A stretch of DNA of 15,101 nucleotides from Phycisphaerae bacterium. Its GTDB lineage: Bacteria; Planctomycetota; Phycisphaerae; UBA1845; PWPN01. Numbering within the stretch: position 1 is the stretch's first letter; each line of letters opens with the position of its first letter. Of this stretch, positions 2,638-11,492 are shown piece after piece. The stretch covers positions 1 to 15,101 of the forward strand of contig PWPN01000146.1 of the NCBI GenBank assembly GCA_003557125.1, written 5' to 3'. The translations under genes were made by a program, and so were the position numbers. A model generated the notes under the pieces. It saw nothing but the letters and a program-made list of their open reading frames with translations, searched no databases and was not told the DNA's origin.

Positions 2638-5600
2638 TCAGTCCCGGTGGCGGCCCATCTGCATCATGCCCTCGAGCGTTCTTCGAATATTTCCGGCGAT
2701 CTGGGTGCGTATGACCGGCTCGCCGAGAGAGCCTTCCACGCGCACTTCCACGAGCTCGCGCGCGACCCCCTCGACGAATTCGCTGAACACCTGGAATCGC
2801 GGCAGCCGCACGGGTGAACCGACCAGCAGCGCCAGGTCGAGGGTCCGGGTGGGTGTGTGCGCCCGGCCGGCACCCACCATCGACAGGCCGCGCCCCCGCA
2901 GGTCGATCTCATCGAAAATGAGCTCGTCGCCGTGGATCGTGTAGCGGATCAGCGCGTCGTGGAAAGCGGTATCGTCGAGCGAATCGCCGATGACGCGCAT
3001 CATGGACAGAAGCAAGGGGACGCGAAGCATCTGCGCCTGGTAGATCGAGACGCTTCCGCCGCCGCGGCGGCTGGGCTTGTCCCCGAATCGGCCGACCAGA
3101 TCGAGGTGACCCGTGGCACGCCCCTCGACGGAGACGGAAGGTTGGTCCGCATCGGTTTGCGTATCGAAAAAAGCATTCAGCGACAGGTCGTAGGCCGACA
3201 GCGAGACACCGTAGGTCGACCCGCGCGGATCCGCGTCGATTTCGAGTCGGCCGGCCACCTTGCCCTCGCAGAAACGACCGAAAAACTCGTCGATGACAAA
3301 GCGCGTCGAGTCGGCCGGTCGTGCGAACGTCGCCCGTGCGTCGGTCACGGTACGATCCGCCACAACGACGTTGGCCAGCTCGAACCGTCCCTCGCTTGCC
3401 CATTGCCCGTCCATGGCCACGCGACCCTCGATCGCGCCGTCGATGTTCGACACCTTCGTCCCGAGTTCAAGCGACGCGTCTTTGAGATCGAGCCGACCCT
3501 GAATCGACCAGCGGGGCGGCTGCCTCGGAACGGCTGTCACCTGAAGCGACTCGAGCGAAAGATCGAAACGACCGGTCGGTTGCAGATCGTTGTAGAGCCG
3601 TCGCAACCGCCAGGGGAGCGCTGCGCGGAGCGTTTCGGAAAAGGTCATGTCATGCGCTTCCACGGCCAGGCTCGTTTCGGTGAATTCGTCTCCGAGCACG
3701 ACTCGGCCGTCGAGCTGGAAAGTGCCTTCCCCCGCAAAGCCGGCGAGCTTTTCGAACGACACCGCGTCGCGCGTCACCTCGATTCGGCCCGTCAACGCTT
3801 CGGCAGGCAACGGGAACGCTTCGTAACAGGCATGCGCTTCGAGCGGTTCGATGACGATCGCGTAGGGGATGGCTGTACCCTCGGCCGACGGCGTGTCCGG
3901 TGCGGGTGCGGTCGCGGTGACAGCTTCCAGACCGTACCGCACATCGACAGCCACCGCACCGGAAGGCGAAAAGGCCTCCCAGACCGAATCGGCCGCGTCC
4001 GGCAGCACCGCGCGGAGCCGATCGTTCAGCTCCAGGCGAGGGCTCTGCATGTGCAGCGACAGTTCCGCACGGGCATCGTCCAGCGGAATGACGCCTTCGA
4101 GGCGTACCTGCGATTCGTGAAAAAGGCCATCGAAATTCGAAAGAATCAGCCGGTGCGGCTCGATCCGCAACAGAGCCCGCCCGTCCGTGAGCATCTCGTC
4201 CGTACCGGGGAGCCTGACCGATCCGTCGGTGACCTCGGCCGTGAGATCGCAGACGAGCGGTTGACCCGGTGACGGCGAAAACAGTCGGCCGTGGATGTCC
4301 GCACGCCCCTCGGGCGAGAGCGTTTCGAAAAGCCGTCGGCCGCTTTCCGGCAAGGCGCTGCCGAGTGCCTTGTCGAGAACGACGTTCGTCGCCTTCAGGT
4401 GAAGGTCCATGCGCGCATCGTCTTCCAGAAGCGACTCAGCCGATCCGTCGACGACCACCTCGCTCGGCCCGTGTCGTGCGCGGAGGTTGCGGGCGACCAT
4501 GCGGCTCCCGTTTATCTCCAGTCGGCCGCTGAGGTTGCTGAGCGCATAAGGGAACCACGTCATATCGAGCGTGCCGTCGCGAAAGTCGATCGCGACCTCG
4601 GTTTCCCAAGGCTCGGCCGGCTCGGTGAGCGGGACCGGAGGCCGTGCCATGACGACGTGCACTTCGGCCCGCACATCGGCGTTGAATTTTCGGATCGCCT
4701 CGGCTTTTTCGGGAGCCAGGCACTCCAGCAGCGGCTCGTCGACCGCGATGTTCCGACCGACGATCTCCAGTCGGCCTCCCTTGTCCATACGGCCGCCGAG
4801 CAGGCCGTTGATCGGGACTTCATTATCGTACTGACGGCCCGCGACATCCTTCAGTTCGACCAGCCCGTCGGGCCGGAAATGGACTGCACCAGTCATATCC
4901 GACAACCGGTAGGGGAACCGGAAGTACCGCGCGCTCGCTCCGCGGAACGTCAGCAACCCCTCGGCGAATTGCACGCCGGCATTCGGACCGGGTTCGCGTG
5001 TCAGGTGGATCATCATGTCGATCGGCCCGTGCCCGTCGAAATCTTCGACCGAAACCTGCAACGCCGGTATGGCATGGACGAATCGGCGTTCAGCCTCGGT
5101 CGGGGCGTCTTCGTCGCGTGGGAGCGGCAGGCCGACCAGCGTGCCGGTCAGATCGAACCCGAGCCCGGCCAACCGTTCGGCAAGCGTGCCATCTTCCGGC
5201 AGCGTGAGCGTGCCCTCGATTGCGACGGTCGTCTCGCGAAGTCGGCCTTTCAGCTCGACCTGCGCGCCCGAAGCGTCGAGCCGGACGGTGCCCACGACAT
5301 CGTTCAACATGAGATAGCGCGTGTCAGGCGGAGCCGCGCGGTCCTCGTCGCAAACGGGAACCGCCAGTGTCAGACCGCGCAGGCCGACCTCGGCCGACCA
5401 CGCTCTCGCCGAGTCGTACGCGAATCGTTCGAGACGCACGACCCCGTCCGCTGCGAGCATGTTCAGCATGTCGGCTGCGTGCGGCGGCAAAGCCGGCTTC
5501 AGGTCACGAATCGCCAGGGCGGGGAGACTGCCCGTCACCGAGCCCCGCTCGAGGTCCAGCCGAATGTCGCTCCTTTCCGGAGGCAGCTCAGCCGCATCGC

Positions 5601-6291
5601 GCTCACTCGACGATCGCGTCAGTGCGATGCGGTAACCGTTCGGTTGCGCCGTATCAGGTCGCGCATGCACCCACAGCCGCTGTTCGGTTCCCACCGTTCG
5701 CCCGTCTTGCTCGATGCGTGTCTGACGGACGCGCAGATCGCGAAGCCGGACCTCGGGCAAGCGGCCCGCCTTCGGCCCTTCCTCACGTTCGTTAAGGTCG
5801 GCGAACATTTCCTGAAAATTCCAACGTCCGTCGGACGCGCGGTAGAGCAGGTCAAGCTCGGCGTCGACAATGACCGTTTCGGGCACCGCCAGCTCGCCCG
5901 ACAACATGCTCAACGGGCACAATCGCAGAAAGATCGTGTCCGCTCGGACGAGGGTGCGCGCCTCGAAACAGTTGTTGTGCGGGTCGAAGTGCGCGTCAGC
6001 GGGCAGCGCGATAGCGACGTCGAGCAGATGAAGCCCCTCGAAAAGGTTGAACCGCACGCCCCCGACGTGCGCTTCGCCGCCCGTCCGGGATTCGATCCAC
6101 AGCTGCGCCAATTCGCGCAAACGGGTTTCGTCGGTCACGTGACGGTAGACCACCACACCCGTGCCCAGCCCGATGAGCAGGCCCAGCCCGATGAGCTTCC
6201 TGCCGAATCGCCAAAGCCAGGGGCGGTTCGACGTTCTCGACGGAGATGGTTTCGAAAGAAAACCCAATCTTCGATCCCCGGTTCGGCACAT
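2638..6291 (-). CDS. AsmA-like (YhdP/TamB-type) envelope protein, 1217 residues
   Basis: A very long protein anchored by one N-terminal transmembrane helix (about residues 33-49, IGLGLLIGLGTGVVVY) after a basic cytoplasmic tail. It is followed by the AsmA-type opening, with a pattern like VRFNLFEGLHLLDV (about 79-92), and about 1000 residues of alternating beta strands. The final ~140 residues (IYQAQMLRVPLLLSMMRVIG, then a beta-rich stretch and SLGEPVIRTQI) match the AsmA-like C-terminal region. Known relatives (YhdP, TamB, YdbH) form long beta grooves spanning the periplasm and are implicated in phospholipid movement to the outer membrane. That role is inferred here. The ATG at 6291 is chosen because AAGGGGAG precedes it by five bases. 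It lies downstream of a glycosyltransferase gene on the same strand. Several long open frames lie antisense to it and are composition shadows. The exact subfamily is uncertain. Confidence 0.85.
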   Translation of the reverse strand: MCRTGDRRLGFLSKPSPSRTSNRPWLWRFGRKLIGLGLLIGLGTGVVVYRHVTDETRLRELAQLWIESRTGGEAHVGGVRFNLFEGLHLLDVAIALPADAHFDPHNNCFEARTLVRADTIFLRLCPLSMLSGELAVPETVIVDAELDLLYRASDGRWNFQEMFADLNEREEGPKAGRLPEVRLRDLRVRQTRIEQDGRTVGTEQRLWVHARPDTAQPNGYRIALTRSSSERDAAELPPERSDIRLDLERGSVTGSLPALAIRDLKPALPPHAADMLNMLAADGVVRLERFAYDSARAWSAEVGLRGLTLAVPVCDEDRAAPPDTRYLMLNDVVGTVRLDASGAQVELKGRLRETTVAIEGTLTLPEDGTLAERLAGLGFDLTGTLVGLPLPRDEDAPTEAERRFVHAIPALQVSVEDFDGHGPIDMMIHLTREPGPNAGVQFAEGLLTFRGASARYFRFPYRLSDMTGAVHFRPDGLVELKDVAGRQYDNEVPINGLLGGRMDKGGRLEIVGRNIAVDEPLLECLAPEKAEAIRKFNADVRAEVHVVMARPPVPLTEPAEPWETEVAIDFRDGTLDMTWFPYALSNLSGRLEINGSRMVARNLRARHGPSEVVVDGSAESLLEDDARMDLHLKATNVVLDKALGSALPESGRRLFETLSPEGRADIHGRLFSPSPGQPLVCDLTAEVTDGSVRLPGTDEMLTDGRALLRIEPHRLILSNFDGLFHESQVRLEGVIPLDDARAELSLHMQSPRLELNDRLRAVLPDAADSVWEAFSPSGAVAVDVRYGLEAVTATAPAPDTPSAEGTAIPYAIVIEPLEAHACYEAFPLPAEALTGRIEVTRDAVSFEKLAGFAGEGTFQLDGRVVLGDEFTETSLAVEAHDMTFSETLRAALPWRLRRLYNDLQPTGRFDLSLESLQVTAVPRQPPRWSIQGRLDLKDASLELGTKVSNIDGAIEGRVAMDGQWASEGRFELANVVVADRTVTDARATFARPADSTRFVIDEFFGRFCEGKVAGRLEIDADPRGSTYGVSLSAYDLSLNAFFDTQTDADQPSVSVEGRATGHLDLVGRFGDKPSRRGGGSVSIYQAQMLRVPLLLSMMRVIGDSLDDTAFHDALIRYTIHGDELIFDEIDLRGRGLSMVGAGRAHTPTRTLDLALLVGSPVRLPRFQVFSEFVEGVARELVEVRVEGSLGEPVIRTQIAGNIRRTLEGMMQMGRHRD

Positions 6292-6364
6292 GCATGCTCC
6301 CCTTGCGGGATCAGCCTGTGCCTGGGTTTTTATCGACGCGATACGCGTTGTGTTCTGAGGGAAG

Positions 6365-6403
6365 ACTTCACGACCCGAACTTCACGACCCGAACGACCCG
6401 AAC
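6365..6403. repeat. Short tandem repeat, 14-bp unit
   Basis: ACTTCACGACCCGA occurs twice head to tail (6365-6378 and 6379-6392), followed by a partial third copy sharing ACGACCCGA. It lies in the 178-bp gap between the glycosyltransferase stop and the AsmA-like start and would be present in a joint transcript. No function is evident. Confidence 0.6.
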
Positions 6404-6469
6404 TGAGGTCCGCTTCGCATCCTACGTTTTCAACTCGAACGATCCATCGTCCCGTACGATACTGCGTCC

Positions 6470-9455: not shown

Positions 9456-9612
9456 GGGTGGTACGGCGTCAGGGTGGTACGGCGTCTCGCCCGTCGAGTG
9501 TATGTGCGAGTCCGGGTAGTAGGGTGTTCGGGTGGTACGGGCGTCTCGCCCGTCGAGTGTATGTGCGAGTCCGGGTAGTAGGGTGTTCGGGTGGTACGGG
9601 CGTCTCGCCCGT
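9456..9612. repeat. Tandem array, about 59-bp unit, with 24-nt palindromic core
   Basis: A 24-nt core that starts GGGTGGTACGGGCG and ends TCTCGCCCGT occurs exactly at 9530-9553 and 9589-9612, with a one-base-shorter version at 9472-9494 and a truncated piece at 9456-9470. The 35-nt segments between the cores (9495-9529 and 9554-9588) are identical, giving a 58-59 bp period. The core holds the inverted repeat ACGGGCG / CGCCCGT. It also recurs exactly at 11428-11451. Identical inter-core segments exclude a CRISPR array. No transposase is present, so this is a REP/MITE-like family that has expanded locally. Confidence 0.85.
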
Positions 9613-9802: not shown

Positions 9803-11407
9803 ATGGCACGGAAAAAAAATGCAACGAAACGGACGGCTGCACCTCGACCGGCCTGCAAGGCCCCGGCTGTGCCGCGCGCCACCCTTCCGCCCGCACCCGC
9901 GGGGCGCCCGTCGTCCCTGGTCGATACGCGTATCATCTATTGCGGTGACTGTCTCGATCAGCTCAGCAAGCTGCCCGATGGTTGCGTGGACCTCGTCTAC
10001 ATCGACCCGCCATTCAACTCGAACCGCAACTACGAGGTCTTCTGGGGCGAGACCAAGGAAAAACGCGCCTTCGAGGACCGGCACGCCAGCACGCAGGCGT
10101 ACATCGAATACATGCGCCCGCGCTGCGTCGAACTCGCCCGCGTCCTCAAGAAAACCGGCAGCTTCTACTACCACTGCGACTGGCACGCTTCGCACTACGT
10201 CAAAGTCATGCTCGACCAGATAATGGGGGAGAACCAGTTTCAGAATGAAATTGTGTGGAAACGTGCCGGCGCGCACAGCGACACCAAGCAGGGAATGAAG
10301 CGTTTCGGAAACGTGACCGATTCAATTTTATTCTACACTGGCGGAGCGAAGACATGGACGTTCAATCCGGAGTACCTTCCTTATGACGATCAGTATGTTA
10401 ATGCGATGTATCGACATGTCGAGCAGGGAACCGGGAGACGCTATCGTCTGGACAACCTTACGGCCAGCAAACCAGGAGGCGACACGAAATACGAGTGGAC
10501 AGCGCCCGATGGCACTAAGGTGAGGCCGTACAAGGGGCGCTATTGGGCGTATAGTCGCAAGAAAATGGAAGCATTCGCTGAGGCCGGGCGTCTGGTCTAC
10601 AGCAAGTCCGGGATGCCCAACTACAAACGCTACCTCGACGAGATGCCTGGAGTTTCATTACAGAACATCTGGACAGATCTTCCACCGATCAGTTCGACGG
10701 CGAAGGAGCGTCTCGGCTACCCGACGCAGAAACCGCTCGCCCTGCTTGAACGCATCATCAACGCATCGAGCAACCCCAACGACATCGTTCTCGACGCGTT
10801 CTGCGGGTGCGGGACGGCGCTGGTGGCGGCGCAGAACCTCGGCCGACAGTGGGTCGGGATCGACGTGTCGCCCACCGCCTGCCGGGTGATGGCCAAACGC
10901 ATGCGCGACGTGTGCAAGCTGCGCGAGGATGAGGACCTGTGGCGGGTCGGGCGCGGGTTCGTGGTCCGCGACCTGCCCTGGACCGAGGAAAAACTGCGCA
11001 AGATTCCGCCGTTCGAGTTCGAGAACTGGGCGGTCATCGCGCTGGGCGGTATCCCGAACAAGGCGCAGGTCGGCGACATGGGCATCGACGGGCGGATCTT
11101 CCCCGTATCGGCCAGCCCGGCCGAGCAGAAGCCGACGAAGGGCCAAACGCCTGTCTTCGACGAGTTCATGGACGCCTGGTACCCGATCCAGGTGAAGCAG
11201 AAAGACAAGGTCGGCCGACCGGACATCGACGCCTTCGAGACCGCGATGGAGCGGGCGAACCGCACGAAGGGCTTTTTCGTGGCGTTCGACTATTCGGCCG
11301 ACGCATTGACCGAGATCGACCGGTTCTTCCGCAAGACGGGCAAGGTGATCGTCGCGCTGACGGTACGGGAGATCCTCGGCGAGCAGTTGGCAATGCGGTT
11401 GGCATGA
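9803..11407 (+). CDS. DNA methyltransferase (N4-cytosine/N6-adenine) fused to Mrr-like nuclease domain
   Basis: The 534-residue product has three parts. Residues 1-40 are a basic Pro/Ala-rich tail. Residues about 41-370 are a beta-class amino-methyltransferase: catalytic motif IV DPPF (68-71) comes first, then a target-recognition segment (about 140-290), then the AdoMet motif DAFCGCGT (331-338). Residues about 400-534 resemble a restriction-endonuclease fold of Mrr type: FEFENWAVIALGG (404-416), GDMGIDG (424-430) and IQVKQ (462-466) supply the D...QxK active-site pattern, followed by KGFFVAFDYSADAL (489-502). Methyltransferases of this class protect DNA from a partner nuclease; here both activities may lie in one chain. 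No separate restriction or specificity gene is adjacent. Codons of the recognition segment are much less GC-rich at third positions than the flanks. No ribosome site precedes the ATG. The methyltransferase call is firm; nuclease activity is inferred from motifs. Confidence 0.9.
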   Translation: MARKKNATKRTAAPRPACKAPAVPRATLPPAPAGRPSSLVDTRIIYCGDCLDQLSKLPDGCVDLVYIDPPFNSNRNYEVFWGETKEKRAFEDRHASTQAYIEYMRPRCVELARVLKKTGSFYYHCDWHASHYVKVMLDQIMGENQFQNEIVWKRAGAHSDTKQGMKRFGNVTDSILFYTGGAKTWTFNPEYLPYDDQYVNAMYRHVEQGTGRRYRLDNLTASKPGGDTKYEWTAPDGTKVRPYKGRYWAYSRKKMEAFAEAGRLVYSKSGMPNYKRYLDEMPGVSLQNIWTDLPPISSTAKERLGYPTQKPLALLERIINASSNPNDIVLDAFCGCGTALVAAQNLGRQWVGIDVSPTACRVMAKRMRDVCKLREDEDLWRVGRGFVVRDLPWTEEKLRKIPPFEFENWAVIALGGIPNKAQVGDMGIDGRIFPVSASPAEQKPTKGQTPVFDEFMDAWYPIQVKQKDKVGRPDIDAFETAMERANRTKGFFVAFDYSADALTEIDRFFRKTGKVIVALTVREILGEQLAMRLA

Positions 11408-11427: not shown

Positions 11428-11492
11428 GGGTGGTACGGGCGTCTCGCCCGTCTGGCTGGAAAGGGCTAACGGGCAAGATGCCCGTACCACCC
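11428..11492. repeat. Inverted pair of the 24-nt repeat core (possible terminator)
   Basis: The forward core at 11428-11451 is identical to those at 9530-9553 and 9589-9612. A copy in reverse orientation at 11469-11492 matches it at 22 of 24 positions. Transcribed, the pair would form a long hairpin 20 bases after the methyltransferase stop, with a 17-nt loop, and each half also folds on itself. It has no T-tract. Confidence 0.75.

Follow-up and report, generated by a model that had tools for sequence, protein, structure and literature searches.

Type IIG restriction enzymes, as a review of Type II systems describes them, combine a cleavage domain and a gamma-class methylase (NPPF/Y/W) in one chain (PMC4081073). 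In enzymes of the MmeI type, the target changes readily because one target recognition domain (TRD) serves both activities (PMC4833311). Movement of a TRD between methylase genes by recombination is as such already known from the Type I and Type III systems of H. pylori (PMC3983042). The E. coli Type IV enzyme Mrr (EcoKMrr) is described as a PD-QxK nuclease that has an N-terminal winged helix and no methylase and that restricts methylated DNA (PMC12707154). Here we analyse a gene whose product joins a beta-class methyltransferase to an Mrr-type nuclease domain, a fusion for which searches of a literature library yielded no paper among the matches listed.

The gene lies in a 15,101-nucleotide stretch of DNA from a Phycisphaerae bacterium, which is referred to as the window. 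Its open reading frame at 9803-11407 (+), with an ATG start and without an internal stop, encodes 534 amino acids. Domain borders were drawn by hand after inspection of invariant columns, in one step with the regional identity counts over 213 related sequences, and gave the following layout.

9803..11407, + strand: entire gene, encoding a beta-class DNA methyltransferase joined to an Mrr-type nuclease, 534 aa plus stop (ORF, Pfam)
9803..9922, + strand: residues 1-40, variable N-terminal extension rich in Lys, Ala and Pro (lower conservation; invariant columns from residue 41 on)
9923..10252, + strand: residues 41-150, methyltransferase half 1 (cat1; mean pairwise identity 0.87, n = 213)
10004-10015, + strand: motif IV DPPF, residues 68-71, inside cat1 (invariant in 213/213)
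10253..10657, + strand: residues 151-285, hypervariable, presumed TRD from its position (mean pairwise identity 0.49)
10658..10954, + strand: residues 286-384, methyltransferase half 2 (cat2; Pfam, regional identity, invariant residues)
10799-10813, + strand: AdoMet motif FCGCG, residues 333-337, inside cat2 (F333, G335 and G337 invariant in 213/213)
10955..11404, + strand: residues 385-534, Mrr-type PD-(D/E)XK nuclease domain (Mrr_cat at 24.6 bits against a cut-off of 21; aligned to E. coli Mrr by hhalign)
11021..11023, + strand: Glu407 codon, conserved acidic residue of FEFENW (213/213)
11087..11089, + strand: Asp429 codon, predicted metal-binding catalytic residue (213/213; pairs with GDGGIDG of E. 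coli Mrr)
11189..11197, + strand: Gln463-Val464-Lys465 codons, predicted active-site QxK (Q463 and K465 in 213/213; pairs with QAK of E. coli Mrr)

In beta-class methyltransferases motif IV (DPPF/Y) comes first and motif I (FxGxG) second, and the TRD separates the two. The window protein has this order of motifs, with motif IV at residues 68-71 and motif I at 333-337, and in a Pfam search with the whole protein N6_N4_Mtase matched residues 62-363 at 163.6 bits (cut-off 26.7), bearing out the complete beta-class methyltransferase (DPPF, then FCGCG) that the original prediction had read from the sequence. PADLOC ranked Type II methylase models best (E = 4.8e-66); Type III methylase models matched too (E = 1.9e-37). 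Matches to solved structures fell mainly within the catalytic halves, which resemble CcrM, M.RsrI and M.MboIIA (PDB 6pbd, 1nw8 and 1g60); the matched chains of these methylases, at 260-366 residues, leave little room for a nuclease domain, and we know of none of the three with one at its C terminus. A Type III Mod structure (6k0w) matched residues 97-348, TRD region included.

The same prediction had placed an Mrr-like nuclease after about residue 400 and proposed comparing that part with the Mrr_cat profile. On the whole protein, Mrr_cat (PF04471) scored 20.6 bits, slightly below its cut-off of 21, and on residues 385-534 alone it scored 24.6 bits, which passes the cut-off; 40 of the 41 members of a nuclease-domain alignment matched Mrr_cat at E <= 0.01. 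A profile of these 41 domains aligned one against one with E. coli Mrr by hhalign (E = 2.1e-5, probability 76.6%), pairing GDMGIDG, QVKQ and GRPDIDAFE of the window protein with GDGGIDG, QAKR and GRPELQAFY. With GDMGIDG starting at residue 424, Asp429 is the second of the motif's two Asp residues. Because hhalign pairs Asp429, Gln463 and Lys465 with the E. coli Mrr motifs, these residues, which had been predicted at just these positions, are the expected active site. A profile search of the PDB with the nuclease domain returned no solved structure at E <= 1, the winged-helix domain Mrr_N had no Pfam match in the window protein at E <= 1, and no helicase domain reached its Pfam cut-off there (the strongest stray hit was Helicase_C_2 with 13.4 bits and E = 0.082, against a cut-off of 25.3).

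Set beside the described systems, the predicted activities of the window protein recall Type IIG/IIL enzymes such as MmeI and BpuSI, in which each chain holds a nuclease, an N6-adenine methylase and one TRD and specificities have diversified widely (PMC4833311, PMC4081073). In the accounts given there, however, the methylase of MmeI and BpuSI is gamma-class and is followed by the TRD, and their nuclease is N-terminal, whereas the window protein has a beta-class methylase with the presumed TRD inside it and a C-terminal Mrr-type nuclease, and at 534 residues it is much shorter than MmeI (919). Nuclease and methylase share one chain, but the methylase, with DPPF and motif IV before motif I, is not of the gamma class, and we therefore do not file the protein as Type IIG, although it probably works like such an enzyme. 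With EcoKMrr it shares the Mrr_cat domain with D...QxK, and differs in having a methylase and no Mrr_N match. Type III systems require a Res helicase-nuclease, and none recurs beside the gene in 95 loci; Type ISP enzymes carry a helicase in the same chain, and the window protein has no helicase match above cut-off.

To follow conservation, we assembled relatives from two sources. A protein search scored 8000 candidates, of which the best 120, 67-99% identical to the window protein, were used (one, P0002, is 99% identical), and a scan of genome contigs gave 562 related loci, of which 80 were kept; taken in this way, the relatives lean towards the window's own type. The 213 aligned sequences comprise 121 proteins, including the window's own, and 92 of the 94 loci L002-L095 (L029 and L076 were left out), with the ORFs of loci read from stop to stop without a called start; 206 of the 213 are distinct over residues 41-534. 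DPPF, F333, G335, G337, E407, D425, D429, Q463 and K465 are invariant in all 213, and with 206 distinct sequences this is not a matter of chance. Thirteen of 14 further copies were checked (L202 was left out), and all 13 are intact at the checked residues. In ten pairs chosen for sharing a genome or for an extreme contrast between flanks and TRD, dN/dS was 0.007-0.097 for the nuclease and 0.016-0.078 for cat1, values that are rough because the pair furthest apart shows synonymous differences of up to 0.69. The invariant residues and low dN/dS indicate that the nuclease half is under purifying selection and that both halves are maintained. Proteins of this kind do stand in databases, a possibility raised when the architecture was first noticed, and some of them are named there as restriction endonuclease, DNA modification methylase or YhdJ; one homologue, P0013 of Phycisphaerae bacterium RAS1, is 76% identical to the window protein.

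Beyond the close relatives, the conservation of the D/QxK residues holds in part. A more distant sister family has the same layout, although, judged by eye, DPPF and a YHCD-like region are set apart by some tens of inserted residues, and its nuclease motif is [Q/E/S]xK, so that the Gln position also takes Glu or Ser. A crude pattern applied to 76 proteins, at least 14 of them of the window's type, gave 32 Q, 13 S, 7 E, 22 without a match and 2 others (L103 and L216) that are probably mis-parsed. In six of eight scanned sister proteins NA-iREase1, named as an inactive family, scored above Mrr_cat in Pfam (in L194, 57.0 versus 32.1 bits), and for this reason the Ser forms, judged by sequence, may not cleave; an NA-iREase1 match alone is no proof of inactivity, because the real Mrr gene in locus L212 also matches that model (42.9 bits versus 121). 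For the wider sister family it is thus possible that the nuclease part is a repurposed module. Sister genes also occur in temperate phages of Streptomyces and Mycobacterium near the integrase (L194 4977-6623 and L196 4064-5695), with Ser in place of Gln in QxK: in phage Dwayne the gene is one small gene away from a serine integrase and in phage Amgine three small genes away from the integrase. Plasmid pMLa of Mesorhizobium japonicum carries a sister gene, and one viral contig (L083) holds a sister-type gene at 919-2283 and a window-type gene at 4875-6467.

Against this constancy of the catalytic parts, residues 151-285 vary strongly. Averaged over all pairs of the 213 sequences, identity is 0.87 in residues 41-150, 0.49 in 151-285, 0.77 in 286-384 and 0.72 in 385-534. 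Pairwise identity in the TRD bears no relation to that in the nuclease (r = -0.02), whereas cat1 and cat2 each correlate with the nuclease (r = 0.25 and 0.32); TRD and cat2 identities correlate as well (r = 0.41), and exchanges may therefore reach into cat2. Five same-genome pairs have nuclease identities of 0.89-0.99 and cat1 identities of 0.86-0.98 but TRD identities of 0.38-0.45. In L022/L055 the values for cat1, TRD and nuclease are 0.98, 0.40 and 0.97, and in L025/L041 0.95, 0.40 and 0.99. Taken by genome, the three copies in Phycisphaerales bin fen_1362 range over 0.93-0.98, 0.38-0.45 and 0.93-0.97, the two in GWC2_45_44 give 0.95, 0.40 and 0.99, and the two in CSMAG_1215 give 0.86, 0.39 and 0.89. 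A sixth pair, L203/L219 in genome G274, has cat1 at 0.93 and TRD at 0.25, and its nuclease is divergent too (0.66). At the DNA level, six pairs chosen for a shared genome or an extreme flank/TRD contrast were about 75-98% identical in the flank cores, about 28-63% in the TRD and mostly below 50% past the gene ends, so that identity drops to near background both inside the TRD and outside the gene.

Trees were built for 78 of the 80 genome loci, with the window added to a combined tree, and changes of cluster along them were compared with 200 label shuffles, TRD clusters being taken at 50, 60, 70 and 80%; branch support was weak, with 11 of 76 inner branches starred and 34 open. On the nuclease tree, phylum labels were clustered (10 changes versus a shuffled mean of 31.0, 0/200 as low). 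TRD types on the same tree changed 43 times at 60% (44.9 shuffled, 29/200 as low), 64 times at 70% (63.7, 133/200) and 67 times at 80% (69.4, 18/200), and on the combined tree 41, 43 and 8 of 200 shuffles were as low at these three levels; the 50% clustering put 66 of 78 rows in one cluster and carries little information. On the cat1 tree an association persists, with 40 changes versus 44.8 (0/200) at 60%, 59 versus 63.6 (4/200) at 70% and 64 versus 69.3 (0/200) at 80%, and nearest neighbours by TRD have a nuclease identity of 0.777 versus 0.708 over all pairs. TRD types are thus not fully independent. As a control, nuclease clusters (84%) mapped onto the cat1 tree gave 41 changes versus 58.2 shuffled, 0/200 as low, and likewise 0/200 at 80, 87 and 90%; nuclease and cat1 are inherited together. 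Residues 151-285 appear to be exchanged between otherwise similar genes, with TRD types that look shuffled on the nuclease tree, and from their position we infer that they form the recognition domain. Each of the four largest TRD types spans two or more phyla, the second-largest comprising Planctomycetota, Acidobacteriota, Verrucomicrobiota and one Actinomycetota bin, although bin labels may be wrong. Third-position GC content in the window gene is 0.64 in the TRD, 0.81 in cat1 and 0.90 in the nuclease, and it is lower in the TRD than in the flanks in 88 of 92 loci; we considered this as a hint of foreign origin but do not take it as proof, because the one-sided direction fits relaxed codon usage as well. 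Five loci carry C-terminal remnants of a second copy downstream of the intact gene (L010 6803-6997, L011 9884-10105, L017 9521-9673, L024 9612-10004 and L035 4495-4839), which suggests tandem copies or allele replacement.

In the window, the gene has tilS on its left and what looks like a gene for a ThiF-family protein on its right, with no Res helicase-nuclease adjacent. Of 174 neighbour ORFs picked from a mechanical set (90 aa or more), 109 were scanned with Pfam; they gave one ThiF match, and no family occurred more than twice. The families listed, 25 of 103, were largely metabolic, including aconitase, LpxC and GCV_T, and each of the 25 of 51 PADLOC families listed for neighbours was found in one ORF. 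Among 1082 mechanical ORFs around 95 loci, no family besides the gene itself occurred in more than five loci, so that there is no recurrent partner gene; nor did a Res helicase-nuclease or a defence-island context recur around the loci. This accords with the early observation that no separate restriction subunit adjoins the gene. The gene is patchily distributed. Of 150 genomes in the window's class, 23 (its own among them) match at E <= 1e-60: 18 do so through the window's type, with 13 copies at full length and 5 partial or broken, and 5 through the sister type alone. In two orders 6/38 and 2/8 genomes match at E <= 1e-100, and in a phylum sample 45 of 199 match at E <= 1e-20, all at <=52% identity except the window's own genome and G145. 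A REP-like repeat, GGTGGTACGGGCGTCTCGCCCGT, flanks the gene on both sides (window 9531-9553, 9590-9612 and 11429-11451); allowing <=2 mismatches, the draft genome of 2.3 Mb contains it 73 times in forward and 83 times in reverse orientation, with no copy of a reversed-pattern control.

Taken as a whole, the sequence makes it fairly likely that the gene encodes a self-contained restriction–modification enzyme, Type IIG-like but of distinct architecture, that would methylate its site and cut nearby when the site is unmethylated. The original prediction had left a choice between such an enzyme and a nuclease part repurposed for DNA binding, and purifying selection on the nuclease, the want of a recurrent neighbour and TRD exchange beside a near-constant nuclease favour the former. 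A nuclease-fold domain that does not cut and serves DNA binding or dimerisation in an orphan regulatory methylase would accord with Ser at the Gln position of 13 parsed sister proteins and with the six of eight that prefer NA-iREase1 to Mrr_cat. In the window's family, however, the E, D, Q and K residues never vary among 213 sequences and the domain and the methylase have about equally low dN/dS, and patchy presence, broken copies and TRD exchange are unlike a conserved regulatory methylase; we consider this explanation unlikely. The domain might instead act as a modification-dependent nuclease against foreign marks, as E. coli Mrr restricts methylated DNA (PMC12707154), with the methylase setting the self mark in what would be a Type IV enzyme fused to a methylase. 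The near independence of nuclease and TRD also fits a nuclease without sequence specificity. Yet Mrr_N, which the canonical Mrr gene in L212 does show (86.9 bits in Pfam), was not found at E <= 1, and a nuclease directed at m6A would be expected to turn on the host when an m6A methylase is part of the same protein, which makes this reading less likely still.

Least probable of the three alternatives is that the nuclease needs a helicase or translocase partner in trans, encoded elsewhere, as in Type I or III systems. Mrr-family nucleases do occur in helicase-bearing Type ISP enzymes (PMC4666363), and the PADLOC matches include Type III methylase models, but the Type II models match better, the protein has no helicase domain, no neighbour recurs near the gene in the 95 loci, and in the six pairs examined shared DNA identity ends near the gene ends.

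Under the self-contained enzyme reading, one polypeptide would hold the whole restriction–modification system. Residues 151-285 would recognise a short DNA sequence, the beta-class halves would methylate an adenine in it (at N6, to judge by DPPF) with AdoMet as cofactor, and the C-terminal Mrr-type domain would cut DNA when the bound site is free of methylation, with cleavage probably made by a dimer and falling close to that site or outside it, in a role that we take to be defensive. A near-identical nuclease beside very different segments means that its target comes from the segment or that it has no sequence target: a nuclease with a fixed target of its own would leave host sites unprotected after a TRD swap, and one without a target, being modification- or structure-dependent, would presumably endanger the host when paired with an adenine methylase. 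Probably, then, both activities take their target from the TRD, in the manner of Type IIG/IIL enzymes. With one recognition segment steering methylation and cleavage alike, its replacement would shift protection and attack together, and the gene could change target in one recombination step. A more specific proposal, to which we would give somewhat less than an even chance, is a beta-class counterpart of MmeI: one gene, present in no fewer than three phyla (Planctomycetota, Acidobacteriota and Verrucomicrobiota), whose Mrr-type nuclease has been redirected to unmethylated DNA by fusion to a methylase and whose recognition domains are pooled between phyla.

If this is true, a compact beta-class form with a near-constant Mrr-type nuclease and an exchangeable segment would widen the Type IIG scheme as the Type II review sets it out (PMC4081073). 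Nature would then also supply a whole series of such enzymes, each about 500-550 residues long and together covering many targets, a cell could collect several that differ mainly in target, and how an Mrr-type nuclease comes to read the absence of methylation instead of its presence would become a testable question. The natural paralogue pairs, with near-equal nucleases and different TRDs, are built-in controls.

Broken copies of the gene are few (L191-L193, L209, L210/L220, L212, L218 and L097), and they stem from draft assemblies, where frameshifts could be artefacts. In L212, L191, L210 and L218 the methyltransferase half is broken and the nuclease half is still readable; because a nuclease active on its own ought to kill the cell, either its activity requires the rest of the chain or the remnants are silent. 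A count of nuclease-dead versus methylase-dead variants was considered as a test of restriction and dropped, since neither site is damaged in any of the aligned close relatives and broken copies are few. Proteins consisting of the C-terminal part alone might suggest a split form, but 19 of them share a length of 168 aa, with 16 of these starting at an internal MAKR, and many lie on short contigs, so that contig ends or frameshifts would be the simpler explanation. Three broken copies (in genomes G145 and G304) have other restriction–modification genes inserted between residue ~111-129 and residue 321-382. L192 (3439-5658) holds an N6_N4 methylase and an EcoO109I-type endonuclease, L212 (106-2187) the canonical Mrr_N plus Mrr_cat gene, and L191 (2341-5317) a methylase fragment with an ORF weakly matching a Type II endonuclease model. 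In the last of these, the remnant of the nuclease half (4748-5317) contains an in-frame tandem repeat, DGLKPALQTQ, in a hypervariable loop.
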